Below are positions 5,909-64,000 of a DNA stretch of 64,000 nucleotides, piece by piece. The position numbers and the translations under genes were made by a program. Under the pieces are notes generated by a model that made no database searches, was not told where the DNA came from, and was given only the letters and a program-made list of their open reading frames with translations. This stretch comes from Capsaspora owczarzaki ATCC 30864 (lineage: Eukaryota > Opisthokonta > Filasterea): NCBI RefSeq assembly GCF_000151315.2, contig NW_011887308.1:403222-467221 (forward strand). Direction: 5' to 3'. Position 1 is the stretch's first letter; each line of letters starts with the position of its first letter.

Positions 5909-8186
5909 AAAAGACCATTTCGAATCGATGGCTAATGTGATCATATACCCGTTTGCGTGATGAAGCAAGGTTCAAACAAAGCCAGCAATCGGAATTCGTA
6001 CGAGGTCCCCAAAAACGGTGCAAAATCTGTGAAATCGCGATTCGAGCACAACTTCATCAGCTGGGCCCATTTACGGCTGTGTGGCGTGTGCAGCCCACGT
6101 CGAGTGCAGAGGACTTCCAAAATTTGAATATTTAGGACGTTATTATTCATCAACTCTGAGTCAAACCGCGGATGCTCATTTGTTGCGCTCTTTTAAGGTA
6201 CAGAATCAGAGGAGTCACGACCAGGTGGAAGGCTTTCCGCCCCCCTCGCAACATCAACTCACGGCAGTACGCTCGAGCGCTGAGGGCTTGGCGTTTCGAA
6301 CATAACGCCATCTTGCGGGTTCTCCCCAAGATCGTAATCTAAATCAAGGCGCGTGCGGTTAATGCCGAATCTTGACAACGCATTTGGGTTTTTTCAGCGA
6401 TGTTGGCAACGCGCATCCTATGCTCACGCGCCATCGCGCTCGCGACTGCACTTTTGGGATTTGCCCCCCCCCTCCATCAGGAGATGCTTTTGGCTTGCAC
6501 TGCTGCGCTCCAGACACACCAGCACCCCCAGAGGAAGCGAAGGTGGGTCACGCATCAACATTGGAGACCCAGACCGAAAATTGCGTCTTTTGAAATTACC
6601 GCACCAATTTTGGAGACCAGTCCCCAATCCACATTATTCTGCTTTGCCATTCCCCATTCGGGTTTGTGATTTTTTTTGCATCCCCGTACTCTCAATTCGC
6701 ATTTAGCTTTGAACGCGCGAGAGTACCGCACACACTTGGTCGACAATCTTCCTTCTCACACTTTTGGTACGTATGTCGCTTTCTCCCCACTTCCCAGCAT
6801 GCTGTCGGCCCTTGCACATAAGGGTCGAAGCCAGTTTGCTTCCTATTGTATTCTTTCTATTGGTTCTCGATTGACCGACACCTCGATCGAGCACTGGTCT
6901 CGCGCGCGTTTCTTCTTGATCGATTTCCATCGCTCTCCTAAATTCGCAGCGGCCTTTCCTTTTCTCAGAGTGATCACTGTGGATGACTAAGCATGCCACA
7001 TCCTCCGTGAGGGTAGATCAGCGGTTGCGAGCCGTTGCATTTTGTTTGTTGGCGAAAAAAAAAAAAAAAAAAAAGAGGAGAAAAAAAAAAAAAAAAGGTG
7101 TCGGTCTCTAAGGACCTTCTCGCGTGGATGCGTAATAGGGTCTGCAATCCCTCTGGCTCGTCCCTCCCCTTCTGCGCGATTGCCGGGATGCGTGCTGTTG
7201 GATGGGTTGTATTTTCCCGCTTTTGAGAGAGAGAGTGAGGCGGCGATGCTGACCAGCCGCATCCTTTAATTGGTGTTGAGGTGGTGCGCGTGCGACGCCA
7301 ACACTTGAGCTGGGAAGGCTCGCTCAGATGTCTGCTCGTTTCGATTTCGCATCAAAAAAACCGCTATTCGCTCATTCCTACCTGCCGACCGCCCGCTCGC
7401 CCAGCTACTGCTCCTCCTACTTCTTGGTTTCTTGGTTTCTTTCACCACGTTAAGAGGCGTGGCACGTCATGCATCCACCACTCCTCGATTGGAAGTGTCT
7501 GAATGGCCAGATGCCGGGTAGGACGGGTTCAAAAAAAAAAAAAAATAAAATTCAAAAAACAAGACAAAAAACAAGACAAAAAACAATTCATCTCGACACC
7601 TCTTTCAGATCTGGATTGTTGGCTTTTCGCAATGCGGTCAAATCTGCACAACACGCAGTCCCGATTTATTCTTCCATCTTGTAATTGACGGCAACGTCTT
7701 TCCATCTACAAAGCTCTTTCCTGCTTTTTTCCCCCATTGCTTTCTTTTGTTGGTCCAAAGGTGAGCGAGTGTGTTTTGGGGCGGTTTGGTGCGGGGCTTG
7801 GATTCCGTGGGTCGCGTCCCTAGCGACAAGCTGCATTTGCTCCAAACCATCGTTTTGAGGAATTGCATTTTTCAAAAAACAAAAGCCACAGCGGACAAAA
7901 CCCGATCACAAATACGCAGTGTCGAACAAAAAAACAAAAAAACATTTGACGTGCATTACTCATCGCTTTTTTTTTTCATATTTTTCTCTTCTCGTTCTCC
8001 TTCTGTCTCCGCTCACTCTGATGCTTGCCACTCAACAAGGTTTTTTCTCTTTTCAAACTCACTGATTTTGAACTGCTTGTTGGTACTCTGCAGCTTCGAC
8101 CGTGATATATTTCTTCCGTTTTTTCCCCATACAACTTGAGCAATTTTTTTTGGCGCTGCGCAATTACCGACGTGCCACAGGTTGTC
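5909..8186. other. Intergenic region upstream of the first receptor kinase
   Basis: About 2.3 kb with no gene I can support. It holds poly-A runs (about 7055-7096 and 7530-7590), C runs (about 6467-6475) and T runs. Short open frames here have no recognisable domains or splice-consistent extensions. A CCACAG at 8175-8180, just before the kinase start, could be a 5' UTR splice acceptor. Confidence 0.45.
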
Positions 8187-11100
8187 ATGAAGCCCACTAT
8201 CAAGTTCGCATTGCTGTGCGTTGTGGCGCTTCTTGCTACCGCCACCCGTGTCCCGTATGCCCAAGCGGCAACGTGTGCCACCGATGATTATGATGTATGC
8301 GGAAACTGCCAACAGGGCGACTCGGAAACAGCTCAAGGCAGCTGCTGCGTACCTATTCTTTTACTATTGTGCGGAGCGTACGACCGCTCGTGCCGGAAAC
8401 CTTCCCCCAATTGCTGCTCGGGCTTCTGGGGCTCGCAGTGCACCGACTGTCCCGCTGGCTCGCAGTGCCCGGGAGGCATCAATGGCATTTCCCAACCGTG
8501 CGCGCCGGGCACCTTCTCCACTGGCTTTGCTGCTGCATGCAGTGCTTGCCCGGCCAACCAGTACCAACCCAAGTCAGGAGCTACATCGTGCGTCGCCTGC
8601 CCAAGCTTCTCGACCAGCACCGAAGGCTCTGCCAAATGCACGTGCAACGCAGGGCGGTATGGCATCAACACCAACACCACGAACATGTCCTGCTCGGTGT
8701 GTGAGCCTGGTTTCCAATGCAGCAACAGCATCCGCACCGCTTGCCCGGCAGGTTCGGTCCAGCCCTCCAGCGCGGGCTCGAGCTGCACGGCTTGCCTCGT
8801 CAACCAGTACCAAAATGCCACGGGACAGACAAGCTGCAAGCCTTGCCCTACTTTCTCAACCTCATCCAGCGGCGCTGCTCGCTGCACCTGCGATGCCGGC
8901 CGCTACATGGTCCAAGATACGTGCCAAGCTTGCGAACCAGGCTTTTATTGCCCCGGCGACAACACCCGCTACGCTTGCCCCGCAAACACGTACCAGGCCT
9001 CTTCGGGCAGCTCGTCGTGCCCTGCATGCCCGGACTTTTCGACCTCCTTTGCCAATTCCGTTGTGTGCACGTGCGATTCAGGCCGGTACCTCGACGTCGA
9101 CTCTGGCATGTGCGTGACCTGCCCCGCTGGCAGTCGCTGCGCCACAAACAGCAACACCCGCACTCTGTGCTCTGCCGGTCAGTACCAGGACGAAGTGGGC
9201 CAAACGAGCTGCAAGGTCTGCCCAGACTCGAGCTGGTCGACCGCCAATGCCACCGGCTGCACCTGCAATGTCGGACTCTGGATGGACGGTTCCTCCTGCT
9301 CCAGCTGCGCTGCCGGCAATCGGTGCATCGGAGACAACTTGCAGCATTCATGCGACATTGACACGTACCAGGACCAGGCTCAGCAGTCTACGTGTGCCAG
9401 CTGCCCCGTTGGCTCGACCGCAACCAGTGGCTCCTCTGGATGCACATGCGGCGCCAATTATGCAAGCTCTGGTGCTGGCAGCACACTGCACTGCACACTC
9501 CTCGGCGCCCTGAGCGTTGCTCCAATGTCACGACTTGTCTATGCCAACGAGGGCGATTTCATCACCTTGGTCTTTTCCAGCACTGTCACAGAGTCCGACG
9601 CCAACTGCACCGTGCTTGTCCTCGGTACCAGCTCTGCCCTCGCCGGTCACGACTACAACTTTGAGTCGTCTCTCACGCTCTTCTTTGACCGAGCAAGTGG
9701 CAACGGTGCAACTCTCAACCTGACCATCCCCGCCAACAACCTCGCTCGCCCGCGCACGAATCTCTACTTGCGACTGGCAAATCCCAACGGTGCAATCTTG
9801 GACACGTTCACCGATGTGCACATTGCCATTCAGGCCGCCAACATTCCGAGCGGAGCCTTCGAGTTTTCAGCGTCCAATCGCACCATGACCGTGGCCCCCT
9901 TGGGATCGGTCGTCCTGACTCTTGAGCGGATTGGTGGAAGCGACGGCACTGCGCAAGTGTCTGTGGCGCGCTCTGACTCGCAGCCCAACCTCGTCTTCAA
10001 CTTTGCCAGCGGACAGACTGTGTGCCGAATTTCGATGCCAATCTCCTCCAATGACCAGCCTGCGCTCGGCTACAACATTCAGCTCAGTATTGCGTCCGTG
10101 GTCACGAGTGTTCTGCCAAGCGAAATGGGAACCTTCTCTAGTGCCGAGCTTGTGGTTCAGGACACTGTGGATGCCCATGGTGTGCTGGCCTTTTCTGCCG
10201 CGTCCTTCACGGGATCGGAGGAATCGGGTGCTGTGGTTGTGACAATCACTCGCGCTCGAGGGCTCTTTGGCTCTGTCTCTGTTCGCTTGACGACCTCTTC
10301 CGGAACGGCGCTCGAAGGATCCGACTTTGTTGGGCTCGACACAACTATCGTGTTTGACGCCGGTGTCAGCTCTGTTTCGACCGCCATTACAGTGATCGAC
10401 GACACCATTCCCGAGCTGGCAGAAAACTTTGTTGTCGCCTTATCGTCACCCACTGGCGGCGCGATTCTCTCGAGCAGCAACCCAATCCAGACCGTCTGCA
10501 CCATTAGCGAAAACGACGACGCCCGAGGCGTCCTTTCGTTCGAGAGGGCATCGCTGACTGTCGACGAAAATGTCGGCCAAGCGGTTCTCACCGTGCTTCG
10601 AACCGGCGGCGCCTTTGGATCGGTCACGGGCTTTGTCTTGACGGTCTCTGGCACGGCTACCGCAGGTACTGACTTTGTAGCACTCCCGTCCTTGCCTGTT
10701 GTCTTTCCTGAAAATGTCACAGCCGTCAACGTGAGTGTGACCATTCTCAACGACGACCTTCCCGAGCTGGATGAGAGCTTTGTTGTGTCGCTCAGCAGCA
10801 ACGGTCTTGGCGGCGTGCGCATTGGAGCGCAGGCTTCCACCACTGTCACCATTCGAGCCAACGACAACTATGCCGGCCTGTTCTCGTTCGACACGGCCGG
10901 GGCTTCCGCTGACGTGGCTGCACGAACGACCCTTTTTGAAGGCTCCTCCTTCAACATCACCGTACTGCGCAACGCTGGGTTGTTTGGCGCCCAGTCCCTG
11001 ACCGTCAAGTCGGTGTATCCATACCCAGAGACCTCGGCCGCAGATGTTCTCATTGACAGCCAGCTGGACTTTGCCGACGGAGAGCGCATCAAGGTGGTGA

Positions 11101-13406
11101 CAATCACAGTGCCAGACCAAGGCGCGGGCGAGCGACCTGCACGCCGATTTGACTTGCAGCTCAGCCTTGCAGTGGGCAGTCTTGCTACGTTGAGCGGCGC
11201 ATCTGCGTACATGGTCATCGAGCCCGTCTCCACCGTCGGGGGCGTCGTTGGCATCACCGTGAACGGATCATCCCTCATTGCCGAGGGCTCGAATGTGACG
11301 TTGACCATTGCCCGCACGCCCAACCCAGTCACAGGCACGTTGCCCGTTTCCGTGTACTACCGAACCGTTTTTGGAAATCCTTCCTCGGTTGCGGATGGCA
11401 CGGACGCCGATGATCTCCAAGTACAGCAAGGGCTGGTCACATTCCAACCAAACCAGTACAGCACCACCATTCAAGTCACAACCATCCAGGACTCGCGCCC
11501 AGAGCAAGACGAAATTTTCTATGTTGAGCTGTTCGACGTTTCTGGCATGTTCATTTCTCAAGCCCACGGCCGTGTGGCTGTCACGATTGCCGCCAATGAC
11601 AACGCCTACGGCGTGGTCTCGTTTGCGAATCACACGCTAACGGCCGTGTTCGCGCAGGGCTGGTTGCGCATTCCAGTCGTCCGTACCGGCGGAGTGTTCC
11701 GTGATACGCAGGTGACGATTGAACAAAACGCCTACGCTATTCGCAGCGCAGATGATCAAGGCCGAGAGGGCTCAGCGCGCGACAATCGCCAGTTCGTGAT
11801 GACGGAGACCTCCGTCACAATCCCGGCCGGCTCGAGCGAGGCGAATTTCAACCTTTGGCTTTTGAACCCGACCGACCTCCAGCATACCGTCTACTCGTTT
11901 ACTTTGAACATCACTGGCGCGACGAACGGCACCGTTCTGAGCAATGGCGAGGACGAACTGATTGTCACTGTCGATCTCGTTGTGCCCGAAGCGGCCAGCT
12001 CCCAACCAGTTGCACTGATCATGGGTGCAACTCTGGGCTCGTTGCTGGTGCTGTTGGCCCTCGGCCTTCTCTTGATCGCATACTGCCGTCGTCGCGAACC
12101 GAAGATTACAAACAAGTCTTCCGGCAGCCTCACGCACACGCTGGACACGAGCTCGACAATCTTGGACTTCCAGGCTACGTTTGACCCCGTGTACGCCGTG
12201 GCCGTTCGTCAACCCGTCCTCCATTCCACCAACGAGATGATTTCCACACTGCCTGCCTACGCTATGGCGATTCGCAAGGCCGACCGCTCCGTTCCAGTTG
12301 GCTATGATGTGTTACAGCCCGTGCCGGCCCACGCGGCCTCCCCTTCCGCAGCTGGCTACGCCCTCTTGCAAGGGGCTACGGAGGTTGGCGGCTATGCCAT
12401 CTTGCAGAACTCCAAGGTGGCCAACGGTCCCCAGCGTACCATCAGCGAGCGACTGTACGGTGTCGCCAGTTCTGAAACTGGCGCAGCGAGCACCATCCGC
12501 GAAAATCTCGTTCTGGGCAACCCCATCGGCGACGGATTCTTTGGTCAGGTGGTGGCTGGCGTGCTCCCCATCGTGTATGCCTCGCGAGACCTCCACCTCA
12601 ATCCCATTGTCGACAGCCCCGAGCACGTTGCTGTTGCTGTCAAGCTGCTCAAGGTCACCGCCAATGAGAAGGACCAACGCGACTTCCGTTCGGAAGCCTC
12701 CATGATGGTCCAATTCAACCATGCCAACATTGTGACTGCGATCGGAGCCCTGCTCGAGCAGCAGCCCAACATGCTCGTCCTCGAGTTTATGCCTTACGGC
12801 GACCTTCAAACCCTTCTTGTCAAGTGCAGCGTTGGCAACATCACCTGGACTCCGCGCGAAGTGGCGCATGCCATGCGACAGGTTGCCTCGGCAATGGACT
12901 ACCTTGCGCGCCAGCAGTTTGTGCACCGCGACCTCGCCGCCCGCAACTGCCTGGTTGGCCCAAACCTGACCGTCAAGCTCGCCGATTTCGGCCTCGCTCG
13001 CCGTGTTGACAGCGGATGCTACCAGCTGCAGACTCGAGGCCGCTTGCCTGTGCGCTGGCTTGCCATCGAATCGATCGGCTACCTCACGTTCACCACCGAG
13101 TCAGACGTTTGGTCGTACGGCGTCCTGGGATGGGAAGTCATGTCCTACGGCCTCAATCCGTATGCCAACCTGCCCTTCGAAGAGATGCTCCGACACCTCG
13201 AATCGGGAGCTCGCTTGCCGCAGCCCGATACGTGCCCCGTGCACATTTGGTCGTTGCTGCGCAGCTGCTGGGAGCCCAATCCCGCCGACCGCCCCATCTT
13301 CCCGGATATTCTCACCTTCTGGGAAGAAGAGGCCAGTGCCACTGTTCATCAAGAGCTGCGTGATCTCGGGAAGATGGTTGCGCAGCAGCAGCAACAGCAG
13401 CAGTAG
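8187..13406 (+). CDS. Receptor tyrosine kinase with GCC2/GCC3 Cys repeats and Calx-beta repeats
   Basis: Intronless coding sequence of 1739 residues. I chose the ATG at 8187 because it opens a classic signal peptide (FALLCVVALLATA, cleavage near residue 27); an upstream in-frame ATG at 8136 would bury it. Residues ~60-430 are about five Cys-rich repeats of the ephrin-receptor-like GCC2/GCC3 type (NQYQ...G.TSC..CP and CTCDAGRY motifs). Residues ~435-1270 form about seven Calx-beta-like repeats (for example ARGVLSFERASLTVDENVG and ILNDDLPELDESF). A membrane span lies at ~1275-1297, followed by CRRR. The kinase domain begins near 1443: GDGFFGQV loop, VAVKLLK lysine, HRDLAARN catalytic loop near 1578, DFGLA near 1600, then PVRWLAIES. 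All catalytic residues are present, so it should be active. The juxtamembrane segment carries repeated tyrosine motifs (Y1373, Y1391, Y1403). It should sense an extracellular ligand or matrix, possibly with Ca2+; the ligand is unknown. Confidence 0.93.
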   Translation: MKPTIKFALLCVVALLATATRVPYAQAATCATDDYDVCGNCQQGDSETAQGSCCVPILLLLCGAYDRSCRKPSPNCCSGFWGSQCTDCPAGSQCPGGINGISQPCAPGTFSTGFAAACSACPANQYQPKSGATSCVACPSFSTSTEGSAKCTCNAGRYGINTNTTNMSCSVCEPGFQCSNSIRTACPAGSVQPSSAGSSCTACLVNQYQNATGQTSCKPCPTFSTSSSGAARCTCDAGRYMVQDTCQACEPGFYCPGDNTRYACPANTYQASSGSSSCPACPDFSTSFANSVVCTCDSGRYLDVDSGMCVTCPAGSRCATNSNTRTLCSAGQYQDEVGQTSCKVCPDSSWSTANATGCTCNVGLWMDGSSCSSCAAGNRCIGDNLQHSCDIDTYQDQAQQSTCASCPVGSTATSGSSGCTCGANYASSGAGSTLHCTLLGALSVAPMSRLVYANEGDFITLVFSSTVTESDANCTVLVLGTSSALAGHDYNFESSLTLFFDRASGNGATLNLTIPANNLARPRTNLYLRLANPNGAILDTFTDVHIAIQAANIPSGAFEFSASNRTMTVAPLGSVVLTLERIGGSDGTAQVSVARSDSQPNLVFNFASGQTVCRISMPISSNDQPALGYNIQLSIASVVTSVLPSEMGTFSSAELVVQDTVDAHGVLAFSAASFTGSEESGAVVVTITRARGLFGSVSVRLTTSSGTALEGSDFVGLDTTIVFDAGVSSVSTAITVIDDTIPELAENFVVALSSPTGGAILSSSNPIQTVCTISENDDARGVLSFERASLTVDENVGQAVLTVLRTGGAFGSVTGFVLTVSGTATAGTDFVALPSLPVVFPENVTAVNVSVTILNDDLPELDESFVVSLSSNGLGGVRIGAQASTTVTIRANDNYAGLFSFDTAGASADVAARTTLFEGSSFNITVLRNAGLFGAQSLTVKSVYPYPETSAADVLIDSQLDFADGERIKVVTITVPDQGAGERPARRFDLQLSLAVGSLATLSGASAYMVIEPVSTVGGVVGITVNGSSLIAEGSNVTLTIARTPNPVTGTLPVSVYYRTVFGNPSSVADGTDADDLQVQQGLVTFQPNQYSTTIQVTTIQDSRPEQDEIFYVELFDVSGMFISQAHGRVAVTIAANDNAYGVVSFANHTLTAVFAQGWLRIPVVRTGGVFRDTQVTIEQNAYAIRSADDQGREGSARDNRQFVMTETSVTIPAGSSEANFNLWLLNPTDLQHTVYSFTLNITGATNGTVLSNGEDELIVTVDLVVPEAASSQPVALIMGATLGSLLVLLALGLLLIAYCRRREPKITNKSSGSLTHTLDTSSTILDFQATFDPVYAVAVRQPVLHSTNEMISTLPAYAMAIRKADRSVPVGYDVLQPVPAHAASPSAAGYALLQGATEVGGYAILQNSKVANGPQRTISERLYGVASSETGAASTIRENLVLGNPIGDGFFGQVVAGVLPIVYASRDLHLNPIVDSPEHVAVAVKLLKVTANEKDQRDFRSEASMMVQFNHANIVTAIGALLEQQPNMLVLEFMPYGDLQTLLVKCSVGNITWTPREVAHAMRQVASAMDYLARQQFVHRDLAARNCLVGPNLTVKLADFGLARRVDSGCYQLQTRGRLPVRWLAIESIGYLTFTTESDVWSYGVLGWEVMSYGLNPYANLPFEEMLRHLESGARLPQPDTCPVHIWSLLRSCWEPNPADRPIFPDILTFWEEEASATVHQELRDLGKMVAQQQQQQQ

Positions 13407-56928: not shown

Positions 56929-59900
56929 ATGGCAAAGCAATTCTGGAGCATTTTCGTGCTCGTTGGCTTTTTGGTCGGATCTGCGCACGCCGTCCAATAC
57001 CGTGCAACATGCTTTGCACGCGCGTTGTATTTCACCCAAGCTTCTGGCTGCGCAGATGGAATCTGTACGTGCCGGTCCTTGGTTTGTTGTGAAATGCGTT
57101 TCCATATTCGTCCTGTGACGCTCATTGATTCTGTTTGCGAACATAAAGGCGACCCTTACTGCACTGGTTGGGTGAAATTTGCGCCAAATGGCAACGCCAA
57201 CTGGAATGCGGCTGCCATTTGGCAACGCCAACTGGAATGCGGCTGAACAAGAATCCCACAACCCTCGTTGGAACATTGACATCAACTATGGCGCTGTGAG
57301 CAACTGGGCAGGGACGGTGCAATGGTATGTCGACTGCGACGACAACGATCCTTGGCCCGCTCCCGACGATGACATGGGATGGAAGACGTTCGATCCCATC
57401 ACCCTGAACGGCAATGAAGAGCAAGGCAGCTTGGCGGCCAGTCCTTGGCAAGGTGTCAATCTTGGTAGCACGGCTGATGGCGAGTTCAACATTCCTGCAG
57501 TCTACGTCTACCATCGCGCCATGTGCGACCAATACTGGTACGGTGCTCGTTGCGGCGAGTACTGCAGAGTCAGCGATCCTCCGGCGTGCACCGCTTGCAA
57601 TCCCTCGTCAGGCGTGTGCACTTGCAACGTTGGTTACCAGGACAAGGACTGCGGCACTTGCCAGTCAAACTACTGGCCAGTTGGCACGTCGGGACAAGCC
57701 GGCTTCCAATGCGTGTACTGTGTGGATACGAACACTGCCTCTGCGTGCTACACGTGCCAAGCTGGTGGTGTCAAGAGCTGCTGCACTGGCTGGAAGAGCA
57801 CCAATTGCAACGTCAAGAAGAACTGCAACTCGTTCGTCGCGCCTCCTGCCAACTCTGTGGCCGTCGGCAGCACCTGTGTCTGCACAACGTACGGCTGCAC
57901 CTGTCAGTACTCGTGCAAGTCTGGCTTTTCTGGTGGCTCTGCTACCACGACGTGCCAAAACGACGAAACCTGGCGCTGGAGCTCGACGCTTACGTGCACG
58001 GACAGAGACGAATGCGCTCCGGGCGGCGGCAACCAGTGCGCTCAAATCTGCACAAACACCATTGGCGACTATACCTGCTCTTGCAACTCGGGATACAGCA
58101 TCAGCAACGCTGGCCGCGGTCCGAGCGGATGCACAGACCTTGACGAGTGCTCGACAAACAATGGCAACTGTGGCCAGAGTTGCAACAATACGCCTGGATC
58201 GTACTACTGCACGTGCCAGCCTGGTTGGCGTCTTCAACCAGACGGCAAAACCTGCCTGGAGATTGACGAATGCCAAGAAGGCTTGGACAATTGCGACGGG
58301 AATGCCACCTGCACCAACACCATTGGCAGCTTTGAATGCGCGTGTTATGCCGGATTCGTGGGCAATAGCACTGTTTGCACGGACGTCGACGAGTGCGCCA
58401 CTTTGCCTTGCAGTGAGTTTGCTGACTGCGCCAACTTTCCCGGCAACTTCACTTGCACCTGCCAAATCGGCTATGCGGGCAACGGCGTCCAGTGCGTGTT
58501 TGGAAATTCAGCGGCTTTTGCGGAAAGCTCGCGGTTTGTACTCCTTTCTGACGGCGCATCGAGCGCCACCTCGCCCATCCAGTTGCGCGTTGAAATGGTT
58601 CCTGAATTTGACGGTACTCTTGTCCCCTTTAACGTGTCTTCGCTGGATCTCATCCTCGGCGTTGATTACACTGTGGAGACCCCATCTCCGCTGGTCTTCA
58701 ATCTCGGCGACACATTCAAGTCCATTACGATTGTGGTGATAGGCAATGACGACCCCGAGCCTCTTCGGAGCCTCTTTGTTCAACTGCAAGATTCAGTCAG
58801 CGCGTTTAACAAGTCGACAATTGCCGTGGACGCCAATGACAATCCAAACGCAGTGGTACGCTTTTCCGCGGCGTCGCGCGCGTTTCGGGTGGACATTACC
58901 GCTGGCACCTACCCTCTCACGATTGAGCGGTACTCGTATGCATCACTCGTGAATGCCATCAATGTCACTGTGTGGTGCGATTTCCCAGTGCCCCAAAACA
59001 TTTCGATCGTGATTCCCGCAAATCAAGTCGCAGCAACAAAGGTCATTCAGCTGCCATTCTCGTCTGTGCCTACTCTTGATGTCGAGCACACGTATACCAT
59101 CGTAGATGCAACGGTAACTGGCAGTGGATCTGCCGCAGCTATCGGCTACTATTCGACTTCTCGCGTGACCGTGAACGCACACGACGACCCTTATGGTGTG
59201 TTTGGATTCAGCTTGACTCAAATGTCAGTGGCGGAGAGCTCTACGGGCTTTGTGCAGTTAAAGCGACTCAAGGGCACTCTGGGAACTACGGTCGTCCGCG
59301 TGCGAAGTTTGACTTTGAGCTCAAGTCAAGCCAATGGTGTGGGAATCGCATCCCCAAGCGACTATGCCGCTGTTTCCCAGCTTGTCACTTTCAGCGAAAA
59401 CGATGTCGAGGCCCAAGTCTCTATTGCAGTGCTTGCCGATGGTGTCCCTGAGCTTGATGAAATGTTTGGTCTGCTCTTGGAGTATGTGTCCGGACCTGGC
59501 CGTGTCGATGCGACATTGGCACTGGCGTTGGTCACCATACCCGAGAACGACAATGCGCGTGGTGTTCTCTCAATCACGCGGGCGTCCAGTTGCTTTGAAG
59601 AGTCGCCCCTTGTTGGTGGAGTTCCTCAGCCGAACAACACGGTGGCGATCGAAGTCATCCGCTCTGGTGGTCTGTATGGTGCCATTTCATTTTCCTGGTC
59701 AATGCACAGCGGAAGGTTCAAGAACACGACGCTGTCCGCCGACAATCGAGCATCAGCACCCGAAGATTACACGGCCTCGTCAAGTCAAACAGTGACCATC
59801 GCTGCTGGTGTGGACCGTGCACAGATTCAAGTGATGCTGCTGGACGATGAAATCCCGGAGTTGGACGAGTACTTTTGGGTGCAGCTGGATTCGGCAAGCT

Positions 59901-62583
59901 CCGGCGTGACCATTGACCCAGTCAGCAACTTTACAGACGTTTGCATCGGCATGAACGACAATCCATTCGGATCTTTGGCGTTCGAGAGTGTCAGTCTCAC
60001 GCCGAGTGCGACGGGCGAGAGCCGTCTGCTTGTTCGCGAGAGCGATGTTGTGACTGTCGCAGTTTCGCGTGTCGGTGGCACGTTTCACCGAGTGTCCGGA
60101 GTTGTCTCCATCGCGCATGAAACAACCAGCTCGGCTGATTTTGCTGACAGCTCCGCTCGCACTTTCACGTTTGAACCTGGACAAAGTACTGCGTTGGCAT
60201 CATGGACGATCAGCGCAGACAGCGGAGAGGAGCCGACCGAGCTGTTCAAGCTTGTTTTGACGGCGAACGGAGCCAGCGCTGGTCAGGAAGCAACTTTTCT
60301 TGTTGGCGCGACGTCGTTGGACTCTACCATCCCGTGCGCTATTGAAGCCCACGATGATGTAAACGGCGTTTTGTCTTTTGTTCAACCGACGGTTTCTGTC
60401 GTCGAAGATACTGGCAAGGTCACTCTGACAGTGCAACGTGTCGGCGGAAGTGCCACAGAAGTCAGCTTCCAGACCAACGCAGTGCCTCTTTCTGCATCCG
60501 GCGACGACTTTGACGCGTCAAATCAAAACAACATGCACATCATGGCACCTTCGCAGACGAGTGTCTCGTTTGACATTGAGGTTTCAAAGGACAGTGCTTC
60601 TGAACTCGACGAGACCTTTACTGTGACGCTCGTCAACGTGACTGGTGCGACCTTGTCGTGGATGTCAGTGGCGACTGTGACCATTCTGAGGAATGACGAC
60701 GTCAACGGCGTGATTGAGTTTGCTCCCTCTTCGGGACAAAATCCACTTGTGACAACTGTTTTCGAGGACACTGGCTTTATTCGGCTCCCTCTGTGGCGCG
60801 AGCTTTCACAAGTTGGTGTCGTCACATTGAGCTTTGTCGTGACAACCGACCTCTCGTTCGATCCCGCGTGCGCGTCTCTGTCGGGTTTGGGTCTGTCCTC
60901 AGCCCCAGCAAACCTGACACGAGATGTGGACGCGGCGCCGTTTGTGGTGACATTTGGAAACGGTCAAAGCGAGGCTGAGCTCGCGATACTGCTGCACGAC
61001 AACAGCTTGACGGATGGCAGTCGAGCCATGTTCATCTGCCTGAAAGATCTGCAAGGAGGAGCGCGCTTTGGTGCCTCTCAAGCGATGGCAATTGTCATTC
61101 AAGACGACGAGCATGATACCAACGAATCAAGCTCCGCTCCAGTAGCTGCAGCTGCTGCAGGCGCAGCAGCGGGAGGCGTTGTTGTGATTCTGATCGTCCT
61201 GCTGGTTGTCGGATTGAGACGTCGTCGAGGACGTTCGAACTTCTCTGGAGCCTCCAAGGGCAAGCAGCTTTCCGGTGCAAGTGATCCAACTTACGAGGCG
61301 GTATCTCGTAATCGAATGTATGACAACACTTTACGAGTGCCAGATGATACCTACCAACCGGTACAGCAGACTGTGGTGCAAGAAGACCCCTACGAATCAC
61401 TGCCACAACCAACGGCTCCCGATGAATCGTTGTTCAACACCGTTAATCCAGCTTGTGAGAAAGTCACCGAGGACAATCCCGATTTTGATGCAATGCGCGC
61501 GAGTTTCCGACCTTCGGTGCCCGTTGACAATTATGAAGACCTGTATATTGCGAGTGTCACCGCGTTCCAACAGCACCAGCGCTTCTCGAGGCATGAGCTG
61601 AAGCTCTCAACACAGCTTGGCTCGGGCAATTTCGGTGAGGTCTGGCTGGCGCATGTGCCCTCCCGATGGCTCGAAAAGAAGTCACGTCAATCTCTTTCCG
61701 TCAGCGCAACGACTGTTGCCACTGTTGCCGTTGCCGTCAAGACTCTGAAAGCCGGTGCCAGCGACAAGAGCAAGAGTGACTTTGCCAGTGAAGCCCAGAT
61801 CATGCGCCGCTTCAACCATTCCAGCATTGTTTCCGTTGTCGAAGTGTTTGTCGAGGAAGAGCCCTGGATGCTCGTGCTCGAGTTGCTCCCGTACGGTGAC
61901 TTGCGCAAGGTCATCCAGTCGTGCCACGCTCGTGGGTTGACACCAACTGCAGGAGAGTGCCTGCACATGTTTTCGCAAGTGGCGAGCGGCTTGTCATACC
62001 TTGCTGGGCTGCGCTTTGTGCATCGCGATATCGCAGCACGAAATTGTCTTGTGGGAGCGGACTTGGTGGTCAAGATCTCTGATTTTGGTCTGTCTCGCGA
62101 GCTTGAGGAGCAGAACTACTACCGCATGCAGACGCGTGGAGCGCTACCAGTTCGCGTAAGATGCTCGTCTTGGAAAGTTCGTTGTTGGTGCGTTTCTCAC
62201 TCGGCTTGGTTGGATGTGCTTTGATGTGTGTTGTGTTTCTGCAAATTCAGTGGATGGCGCCCGAGTTTTTGCTCTTCCGCAAGTCGTCGCCTGCATCAGA
62301 TGTCTGGGCGTTTGGAGTTCTCATGTGGGAGGTCATGTCAGCGGGCGCGTTGCCATACAAGGGCGTCGATTCCAAAGCCATCGTGCAGTTCCTCGAAAGC
62401 GGCCAGCGGCTGTCTCGTCCACCGCTTTGCAACGACAAGCTTTGGGCGTTAGTCTCGAGTTGCTGGACTTGGGAGGTGACCGACCGTGTTGATGCCGCAC
62501 AGCTCTATGCTGCGTTTACGCGAATGGCATTCGACAACCCTGAATTGGATTCCGTTCGCGATCTCGGCGCGCTGCTTGCTTGA
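56929..62583 (+). CDS. Receptor tyrosine kinase with Notch-ligand-like N-terminus, Sushi, EGF and Calx-beta repeats; frame broken by a duplication
   Basis: The gene has a signal peptide (MAKQFWSIFVLVGFLVGSA), exon 1 to 62155, a 95-nt intron and exon 2 (62251-62583). A 31-bp tandem duplication at 57184-57245 shifts the frame; counting one copy, the product is 1842 residues. After a Cys-containing N-terminal region there is a DSL-like module (~189-233: CDQYWYGARCGEYCR ... CTCNVGYQDKDC), a Sushi-like module (CKSGFSGGSATTTC ... WRWSSTLTC), four calcium-binding EGF repeats (~348-513: DRDECAPGG, DLDECSTNN, EIDECQEG, DVDECATLP), about seven Calx-beta-like repeats, and a membrane span (~1393-1418) followed by RRRRGR. 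The kinase (from ~1552) has GSGNFGEV, VAVKTLKA, HRDIAARN, DFGLSRE, NYYRMQTRG and PVR/WMAPEF, all intact. Juxtamembrane tyrosines include MYDNT (Grb2-type YxN) and DNYEDLY. Whether the cell makes a full product depends on whether the duplication is real. Confidence 0.9.
57184..57245 (+). repeat. 31-bp tandem duplication causing a frameshift
   Basis: Two adjacent 31-bp copies (57184-57214 and 57215-57245) differ at only two positions. Both contain GGCAACGCCAACTGGAATGC. Because 31 is not a multiple of 3, the frame of the signal peptide (ending in a stop at 57246) and that of the kinase differ by one; removing either copy joins them exactly. There is no GT...AG pair that could remove one copy as an intron. 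Confidence 0.9.
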
Positions 62584-64000
62584 GTTGTTTTTTGATTGGA
62601 CTCGAGTCTTGCCCCGTTCTATTTGTGCATGTTGTCTGAGGACTCGAGTCTTGCCCCGTTCTGTTTGTGCATGTTGTCTGAAATGTTGAGAAGAAGAACT
62701 GTTTGTGCCGTGATGCGCGAGTATGCCTTTCTCCACGAACAATTCACACACTTCTTCTCAACGACTCAACGACTGAGGGACACACATGGAAACGACAACA
62801 AACTCGCACACTCGGTCGCTCAATCACTGCAGCGACGAGCGAGATTGAATCTCGACTTTTTTTGAGCGTCGCCCCTTCGCTTCCCTTCTTCTCGTGCCAA
62901 CCACCCCCCTCCCTTCATACGCAGTGAGTTGCAGTGCAGTCACACGATGGAAGTGGAAATGACTGACGGCAGCAGCCGGGGAGAGGCAGCACAAGTCGCC
63001 GTTGCTTCTCCTTAGAATCTTAATCGTCCAAACAACCAAATTCACCAGGAAATTTGCGGGTATACATTTTGCAATGGGAATTTTTCCCCGGTTCACTGAG
63101 GCTACTGTGCACCATCGCCCGCCGCCCTGACCCCATCAGGTTTGTACATGACCTGACAGCACCCCGTGGCTGCATGGGCGAGGACGGGGGACACCTGCAT
63201 CGTCGGGTACGGATACCCCCTTTTTGTGTGTCGCAGCTGGTGACGAGGTCCCTCAAAACGGCACTGCAGCCCCTTCTACTGTACACCAGTGGAATGAGCC
63301 GATTTTTTAGATATAGAATCATGTGCGAGACGGCCAGGAGCGAAGCGCTGGAGGCCGCACCAGGTTTCGGGTCCGTCGCGGCCAAGCCGACCGCTCGATC
63401 TCGGCCTAGACCGCACCCACCGCCGATATTATGGTCTCTAAAAATCTAGTAGATGGGTCTGGTACCTCCATTGAACGGGCGGGCCTGGGGAATTGTCCGA
63501 CTGCTGGATATGGACAGCCGTCCACGAGGCCTCAGGGCGCCGACTAGGACAGCCCGTTAGCGCCACCTCTAGTATAGAAAGTTAGCGCTTGGCATGGTGT
63601 ATATGAATCCGGGATCGGTCGGGCGGTAGCGCTCGATAGCACGAAGAAGGACTGAATCGGACTTTCGAATTTCGTCCAAAACCTGCTAGCCCCGAGATCG
63701 ATGCCTTTCACCAGCTCTGTCCGTGTAATCCATACATATTCCGATTGTTCAATGTCTGATGAGTTGGAAACCGTTATGGCGAGTGAGGTGCCGCACGATG
63801 CGTCCGACTTGGCTTCGCACTCGTATCCAGCCATGTAGACACCTAGGAGCTTGACCAGCCATATATCAATGTACTCTATACACTCTATAGTATCCGCTCT
63901 ATATCGCGCGTGGACAGTGATCGTTGGTTTCTAGTTGATGCACCTGACCAAACATTCGACGGGCTTTAACTTGCGATTTCCGAGTCGCATCCATGAAATA
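62584..64000. other. Right-end region without a supported gene
   Basis: About 1.4 kb after the kinase stop. The first part holds a 42-bp tandem duplication and A/C-rich sequence. From about 63000 the composition changes: fewer homopolymer runs, more CpG and many short TATA-like steps near 63850-63910. A 96-codon minus-strand frame (63834-63544, starting MAGYECEAKSDASCG) has no family I can name. It may be degenerate repeat or the upstream region of an unseen gene. Confidence 0.4.
62598..62681 (+). repeat. 42-bp tandem duplication in the 3' flank of the kinase gene
   Basis: Two adjacent 42-bp copies (62598-62639 and 62640-62681), each starting GGACTCGAGTCTTGCCCCGT, with one mismatch between them. 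They start 15 nt after the kinase stop codon, in the probable 3' UTR. Confidence 0.9.

Follow-up and report, generated by a model that had tools for sequence, protein, structure and literature searches.

A C2 domain joined to an apparently interrupted DSL domain at the predicted tip of a Capsaspora owczarzaki receptor tyrosine kinase family

A family of predicted receptors in the filasterean Capsaspora owczarzaki ATCC 30864 appears to carry a C2 domain fused without a linker to an interrupted DSL domain. We put at roughly two in three the probability that this tip is a homologue of the corresponding C2(MNNL)-DSL tip in Notch ligands of animals, that a kinase accompanies it in at least 11 loci, and that the proteins are receptors and not Notch ligands. 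The domains, their order, the insert, the kinase motifs and the tails are evident in the predicted proteins. The window (the whole stretch of DNA analyzed, 64,000 nucleotides) lies on one contig (C17) of the 29 that make up the 27.46-Mb genome searched.

Results

Gene organization

The gene spans 56929–62583 and has two introns (Table 1). Its product shows the features of a receptor tyrosine kinase, namely a signal peptide, a membrane span and a kinase domain with complete catalytic motifs (motifs and span by eye), with the two kinase exons matching PF07714 at E values of 1.6e-45 and 7.3e-26. It also has EGF repeats followed by a membrane span (by eye), as Notch ligands do.

The original prediction, made from the sequence alone, had described a signal peptide from 56929 with EGF, Calx-beta and tyrosine kinase regions downstream; the signal peptide was recognized by eye and the other regions by Pfam, and the quoted strings SNWAGTVQWYVD, YHRAMCDQYWYGARCGEYCR and CTCNVGYQDKDC were all found in the genomic translation at the place given for them. 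The Cys-containing stretch assigned to the ectodomain was correct in part: GCADGIC is kept and CRSLVCC...CEHKG is removed because intron 1 is spliced out, so that the protein reads SGCADGI-C-DPYCTGWVKF. Intron 1 is supported by the paralogue L002, which has an in-frame stop at the same place, and by the paralogue L012, which has a stronger acceptor (CCAACAG/GCGACCC).

Two further observations concern the window at large. A second receptor tyrosine kinase (8136–13403) combines five ephrin-receptor-like stretches, three Calx-beta stretches and a kinase, and a tandem duplication (about 43 nt; 62589–62680, by eye) lies directly 3' of the stop codon.

Table 1. Predicted features of the receptor tyrosine kinase gene, in window coordinates
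Feature	Coordinates	Strand	Basis
Exon 1: signal peptide (56929–56991, by eye) and first C2 strand	56929–57064	+	Translation, splice
Intron 1, 84 nt, GTACGT...AAAG	57065–57148	+	Paralogues, splice coordinates
C2 (MNNL-like) domain, split by intron 1; CDPYxxxxVKF, NPRWN, DxDx..DDMG	56992–57523	+	Family-level profiles
31-nt tandem duplication, copy 1	57183–57213	+	Sequence
31-nt tandem duplication, copy 2, frame-shifting, 29/31 identical to copy 1	57214–57244	+	Sequence; one copy in paralogues
DSL N-terminal half, Cys1–Cys3, CDQYWYGARCGEYC	57524–57565	+	Half-profile comparisons
Laminin-type EGF insert, 52 aa, 8 Cys	57566–57721	+	Pfam EGF_laminin 20.3 bits (cut-off 21), sliding deletion
DSL C-terminal half, Cys4–Cys6	57722–57808	+	Half-profile comparisons, Pfam
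Sushi-like module	57818–57997	+	By eye, approximate limits
Calcium-binding EGF repeats, four	58003–58499	+	Pfam EGF_CA, four stretches; approximate limits
Calx-beta repeats, six stretches	58500–61110	+	Pfam Calx-beta; approximate limits
Membrane span	61163–61216	+	By eye
Tyrosine kinase part 1: GSGNFG, VAVK, HRDIAARN, DFG	61598–62155	+	Motifs, Pfam
Intron within kinase, 95 nt	62156–62250	+	Splice coordinates
Tyrosine kinase part 2, up to stop	62251–62583	+	Pfam

The window copy has a disrupted reading frame. A 31-nt tandem duplication (57183–57244) shifts the frame and leads to a stop at 57244–57246, and the paralogues inspected (L002, L009, L010 and L012) have a single copy of the unit. These observations would fit a pseudogene broken by the duplication, with function confined to the paralogues, which we regard as a serious possibility but would not bet on. 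Against it, the 1681-codon frame downstream of the duplication is entirely open, and kinase residues 1–191 are 99% identical to those of the paralogue at C11:81092; the duplication is therefore either very recent or an assembly error. Template switching or misassembly may account for it. By eye, copy 2 opens with ten bases that are the reverse complement of those opening copy 1. Another member, L005 (C12:515080), has about 20 nt fewer than L004 in the C2 region, with a shifted frame (by eye), and is possibly a second broken copy.

Family members

With two family proteins as queries, the Capsaspora genome yielded 16 and 18 hits (E ≤ 0.01), which represent at least 19 distinct loci: nine of group A (window-like), four of group B, four of group C (C2-DSL-sushi architecture, by eye), and C8:1362164 and C5:976608. 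In the group B paralogues and in L030 (group C), the intron lies elsewhere, ahead of the GxFxxxxDxD strand. Among viral contigs, 48 pattern matches yielded no relative by tblastn.

A same-strand kinase was found downstream in at least 11 of the 19 loci with the window kinase as query (153 matches listed, 150 of 284 candidates scored). Reading of the 3' ends of the other eight loci showed long sushi/EGF-rich frames in C8:1357836 and C8:1362164. The six remaining loci (L049–L054; C14:153800–157300, C1:38500–41800, C1:23800–27000, C1:63600–66800, C1:1134800–1138000 and C1:2164500–2167800) are apparently kinase-less, with a membrane span (by eye) and then a tail containing 7–18 Tyr (4.7–7.3 per 100 residues). 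A motif search of the flanks of the eight non-kinase loci found no HRD-type motif and one out-of-frame DFGL, a kinase on a far exon being still conceivable. Four of the six kinase-less tails contain ITAM-spaced YxxL/I pairs (1, 4, 3 and 1 pairs; none in the other two), and these counts were reached by 25, 0, 0 and 22 of 5000 shuffles. SH2 domains were found at 34 places, including a tandem pair in one frame at C2:2311766 and 2312075; no kinase lies near this pair among the kinase matches listed, and no Syk-type kinase was established. L052 also contains, in the frame from base 1979, an ORF resembling a Tc1/mariner transposase (by eye), downstream of the C1:60190 paralogue.

For the comparisons below, the C2 domain and first Cys-rich module of 12 loci were aligned, the window in part (alignment A3). 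The window is a row of alignments A2, A3, A5 and A8 and is absent from A4 and A9. The 34-aa exon of L005 appears in A1 and in no later alignment; L007 was included in A2 but dropped from A3. L009 and L010 entered only the half-joining test, and no alignment contains L032 or L034 (group C).

The DSL domain and its insert

Pfam analysis of the whole 1681-aa frame (E ≤ 10, HMMER filters on) gave no DSL, C2 or MNNL match. This null prompted the reading that no DSL is present, which was overturned by trimmed modules, paralogues and profiles. When trimmed, the first Cys-rich module of the window (DSL1) matched Pfam DSL with 18.8 bits (E 0.0019) and the second (DSL2) with 18.1 bits, so that neither contiguous module reached the cut-off of 24.2; the predicted DSL likeness thus failed in the whole-frame search and held in the family profiles, which put Notch ligands first. 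Across the genome, outside the window, Pfam DSL exceeded its cut-off at seven places, which by coordinates comprise six second modules and one first module (C13). All 13 first modules examined matched Pfam DSL at E ≤ 10 (lowest E 1.7e-5), and six of them matched EGF_laminin.

A first-module profile matched 18 PDB chains: 12 Notch ligands, three TIE2, one SCARF1 and two laminin chains, with TIE2 at the top by total score. These matches, and those of several EGF-type Pfam families to the first module, would suit convergence, in which an ordinary C2 domain was fused in this lineage to tandem laminin/TIE-type EGF modules and the likeness is that of small Cys-rich modules. Per module, however, the best match shown was the DSL of Drosophila Delta (24.9 bits, vs 19.7 for SCARF1 and 17.5 for TIE2), and a second-module profile matched Notch ligands only (10 of 10 chains at E ≤ 1), so the proteins do not fall into the TIE/SCARF/MEGF-type class with EGF modules and no DSL. 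The first module gave 96.7% with TIE2/SCARF1 EGF modules and 97.1% with Notch-ligand DSL domains, and genuine Notch-ligand DSL domains themselves gave 95.2% with the TIE2/SCARF1 modules; the second module gave 61% and 98%, respectively.

Cutting both modules at the third Cys revealed complementary halves. Compared with Notch-ligand DSL domains, the N-terminal half of DSL1 gave 97.8% and its C-terminal half 74%, vs 39% and 98.0% for the N- and C-terminal halves of DSL2. When the Cys columns were fixed and the rest permuted, no control out of 150 scored as high in three of the half comparisons; in the fourth, that of the first-module C-terminal half, 1 of 150 did. Joining the DSL1 N-terminal half to the DSL2 C-terminal half gave 29.3–53.1 bits against the Notch-ligand profile, above either single module (13.4–24.8 and 10.6–30.7 bits) in 13 of 13 members, which as paralogues represent far fewer independent cases. 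The reverse join reached at most 6.6 bits. Among 52 control joins to EGF_CA halves taken from the same members, the highest score was 26.2 (mean 17.0), and the seven ligands that built the profile score 93–98 on it.

The split had been spotted in the data before these tests. In a sliding deletion applied to eight of the 13 half-join members, the best start was residue 17–27 (21 in five members), that is, from 3 residues before to 7 after the third Cys (residue 20) in all eight. Removing the insert in silico raised Pfam DSL to 34.6 bits for the window and to 45.2 and 57.3 bits for two paralogues, and none of three reverse joins matched. With the insert left out, the six DSL Cys and both halves are present, and DSL is matched by all eight rows of A9. 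Between the halves lie 48–53 residues, for which EGF_laminin was the best Pfam match in all ten members tested (four at or above the cut-off; the window 20.3 vs 21). The interruption between Cys3 and Cys4 occurs in all 13 members examined, window included.

The joined-half, deletion and insert scores therefore lead us to read the region as a single DSL domain into which a laminin-type EGF module is set, between Cys3 and Cys4. The module, half and joining comparisons led us to reject DSL1 as a whole DSL, and two full DSL domains are disfavored by the low score of the reverse join. The original prediction had seen a contiguous DSL with two extra Cys: its N-terminal half stands, the C-terminal half lies downstream of the insert, and the extra Cys belong to the inserted module. 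Several of these results also speak against convergence, namely that the joined halves outscore all 52 control joins and that the deletion start coincides with the third Cys.

The C2 domain and the joined tip

The N-terminal domain is well supported as a predicted C2 domain. The family alignment shows motifs typical of C2 domains (DPYxxxxV, NPxWN and DxDx..DDMG), and a profile of the C2 part only matched 33 PDB chains at E ≤ 10 (best E 0.1), of which 31 are C2 proteins and two are A20 zinc fingers. No Notch ligand was among the 33; this match of the C2 part to generic C2 domains is what convergence would lead one to expect. Pfam C2 was found in three of 12 members and MNNL in one of 12 (E 0.057), all below cut-off, and a Pfam MNNL search of the whole genome at E ≤ 1 gave no match, as did its control.

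Kinship of the C2 domain to MNNL is suggestive. With hhalign, the C2 part alone aligned to seven Notch-ligand rows (MNNL) with a probability of 21.8%, in the same register as the joined alignment. The score of 26.8 was reached by none of 200 column-permuted controls (maximum 17.7) and none of 200 block-shuffled controls (maximum 24.7, which is near), and the single reversed control gave 13.7. MAFFT aligned the Cys pair around the first C2 loop with a Notch-ligand Cys pair; hhalign differed, placing the second Cys on the neighboring Cys of Jagged-1. Of the predicted MNNL-like domain, then, the family-level profiles sustain a C2 domain at the N terminus, and the specific match to MNNL remains weak. 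Acidic C2 loop residues occur in many members (by eye) and suggest that the domain may bind lipid in a Ca2+-dependent manner.

Profiles spanning both domains favored Notch ligands. A 7-row C2-DSL profile matched 38 PDB chains, comprising 12 Notch ligands (including ranks 1–9), 23 C2 domains and three others. A 13-row profile of C2 and DSL1, which keeps the first half of the insert, placed Notch ligands at ranks 1–8 of 29 (best 3.1e-7), with alignments that extend back into the C2 domain; the other 21 matches were 19 C2 domains and two cadherins. With the insert removed, an 8-row profile that does not include the window placed Notch ligands at ranks 1–12 of 34 (best E 6e-13), the other 22 being C2 domains. 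The hhalign probability of C2-DSL against the seven Notch-ligand rows was 96.7% with the insert and 98.9% without it. These profile figures are not independent trials, because the reading was formed on the same data and the members are paralogues. AlphaFold runs on a single sequence gave pLDDT values of 43.2 and 42.9.

In the family, the last C2 strand meets Cys1 directly, giving the (Y)R-x-x-C junction of Notch ligands, which likewise argues against convergence. The matches to Notch ligands across this junction bear out the predicted placement of a C2 domain next to a DSL domain on a receptor tyrosine kinase. Weighing both sides, we consider convergence unlikely and infer that the tip shares common ancestry with that of Notch ligands.

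Candidate Notch-type partners

The DxFGH loop is invariant in the seven aligned Notch ligands and was absent, by eye, from the 12 family rows of one alignment and the 13 of another; Notch binding is therefore not predicted, and the proposed function as a Notch-ligand recognition module finds no support. Animal Notch binds its ligands via EGF repeats. The Capsaspora genome gave seven LNR matches at three loci, two of them with ankyrin repeats and a membrane span by eye (L042, L044, L045 and L048 at C10:722023–722661; L043 at C1:1118516). LNR proteins are thus present, and no EGF family matched the LNR-ankyrin proteins at E ≤ 0.1 in the scanned parts (625 and 590 residues). The third locus is an LNR pair (L046–L047, C1:437017–437286) inside an apparent GNPTAB/Stealth-type phosphotransferase (by eye).

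The two LNR-ankyrin loci, together with DSL and EGF repeats on the proteins described here, might be taken to indicate that the latter work as Notch-type ligands and bind the LNR-ankyrin proteins in trans. The missing DxFGH loop, the scanned parts free of EGF families and the kinase that the protein itself carries make this highly improbable, and on the first two grounds we think that the C2-DSL tip would not bind animal-type Notch.

Discussion

The predicted tip resembles Delta, Serrate and Jagged in having a signal peptide and a linkerless C2-DSL unit, then EGF repeats and a membrane span. It differs in the laminin-type EGF module inside the DSL domain, the lack of the DxFGH loop, a C2 domain closer to generic C2 domains, a Calx-beta stalk and an intracellular tyrosine kinase. 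TIE2, SCARF1 and MEGF-type receptors have EGF modules that the first module alone matches, and TIE2 too is a receptor kinase, but the second module fits them poorly (61% vs 98%, as above). To our knowledge, these receptors have no C2 domain in front.

That a receptor kinase of Capsaspora carries DSL has been published before, and the combination is therefore not new: according to a review of Notch evolution (PMC4810162), Suga et al. (2013) found a 'Delta-like' receptor kinase with two DSL domains in Capsaspora, MNNL having been added later; the review places the invention of MNNL on the way to animals. That kinase very probably belongs to the present C2-DSL family. As cited there, it has two DSL domains and no C2 domain, whereas we describe a C2 domain and one DSL domain split by an EGF module. 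In the choanoflagellate Salpingoeca dolichothecata, MNNL and DSL occur on one protein (Richter et al. 2018, PMC6040629), as C2/MNNL and DSL do here on a non-animal protein; the account of that protein differs in making no mention of a kinase. The same survey gives DSL in two ichthyosporeans and otherwise holds MNNL and DSL to have been deemed animal-specific before it, which conflicts with the Capsaspora DSL kinase of PMC4810162, so that published accounts do not agree. An open-licence literature search found no report of a C2 domain before the Capsaspora DSL domain, of an interrupted DSL domain or of ITAM-like tails.

Most likely, these proteins would act as surface or prey receptors that signal by clustering. 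The C2-DSL tip may bind a partner located on another cell, on prey or in the matrix, with the C2 domain perhaps engaging Ca2+ and membrane lipid; clustering would then allow the kinases to phosphorylate each other, and the paralogues that share the tip, apparently lack a kinase and end in tyrosine-rich tails could serve as co-clustered docking partners.

The family suggests that a C2-DSL tip existed before Notch signaling. Taken together, the data give close to even odds, on the lower side, that the tip predates the divergence of Filasterea from the choanoflagellate and animal lineages, that it began as a sensing tip of receptors and only afterwards took on the role of a ligand, and that contiguous and interrupted DSL domains are two forms of one domain. 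In its early role it may have formed the sensing end of receptor kinases of adhesion type and of ITAM-like receptors that lack a kinase. The insert may have been lost in animals or gained in the filasterean line, or the two half-domains may have arisen by complementary degeneration of a tandem duplicate.

If a filasterean family has a C2-DSL unit, the origin of the unit would move further back, and the unit would be seen on receptors, not ligands. The split DSL domain would offer a concrete case for an older proposal, as told in PMC2725086, that DSL arose from tandem EGF domains by truncation. The kinase-less sisters with ITAM-spaced tyrosines, if real, would provide a pre-animal model for the division of work between receptor kinases and docking receptors.
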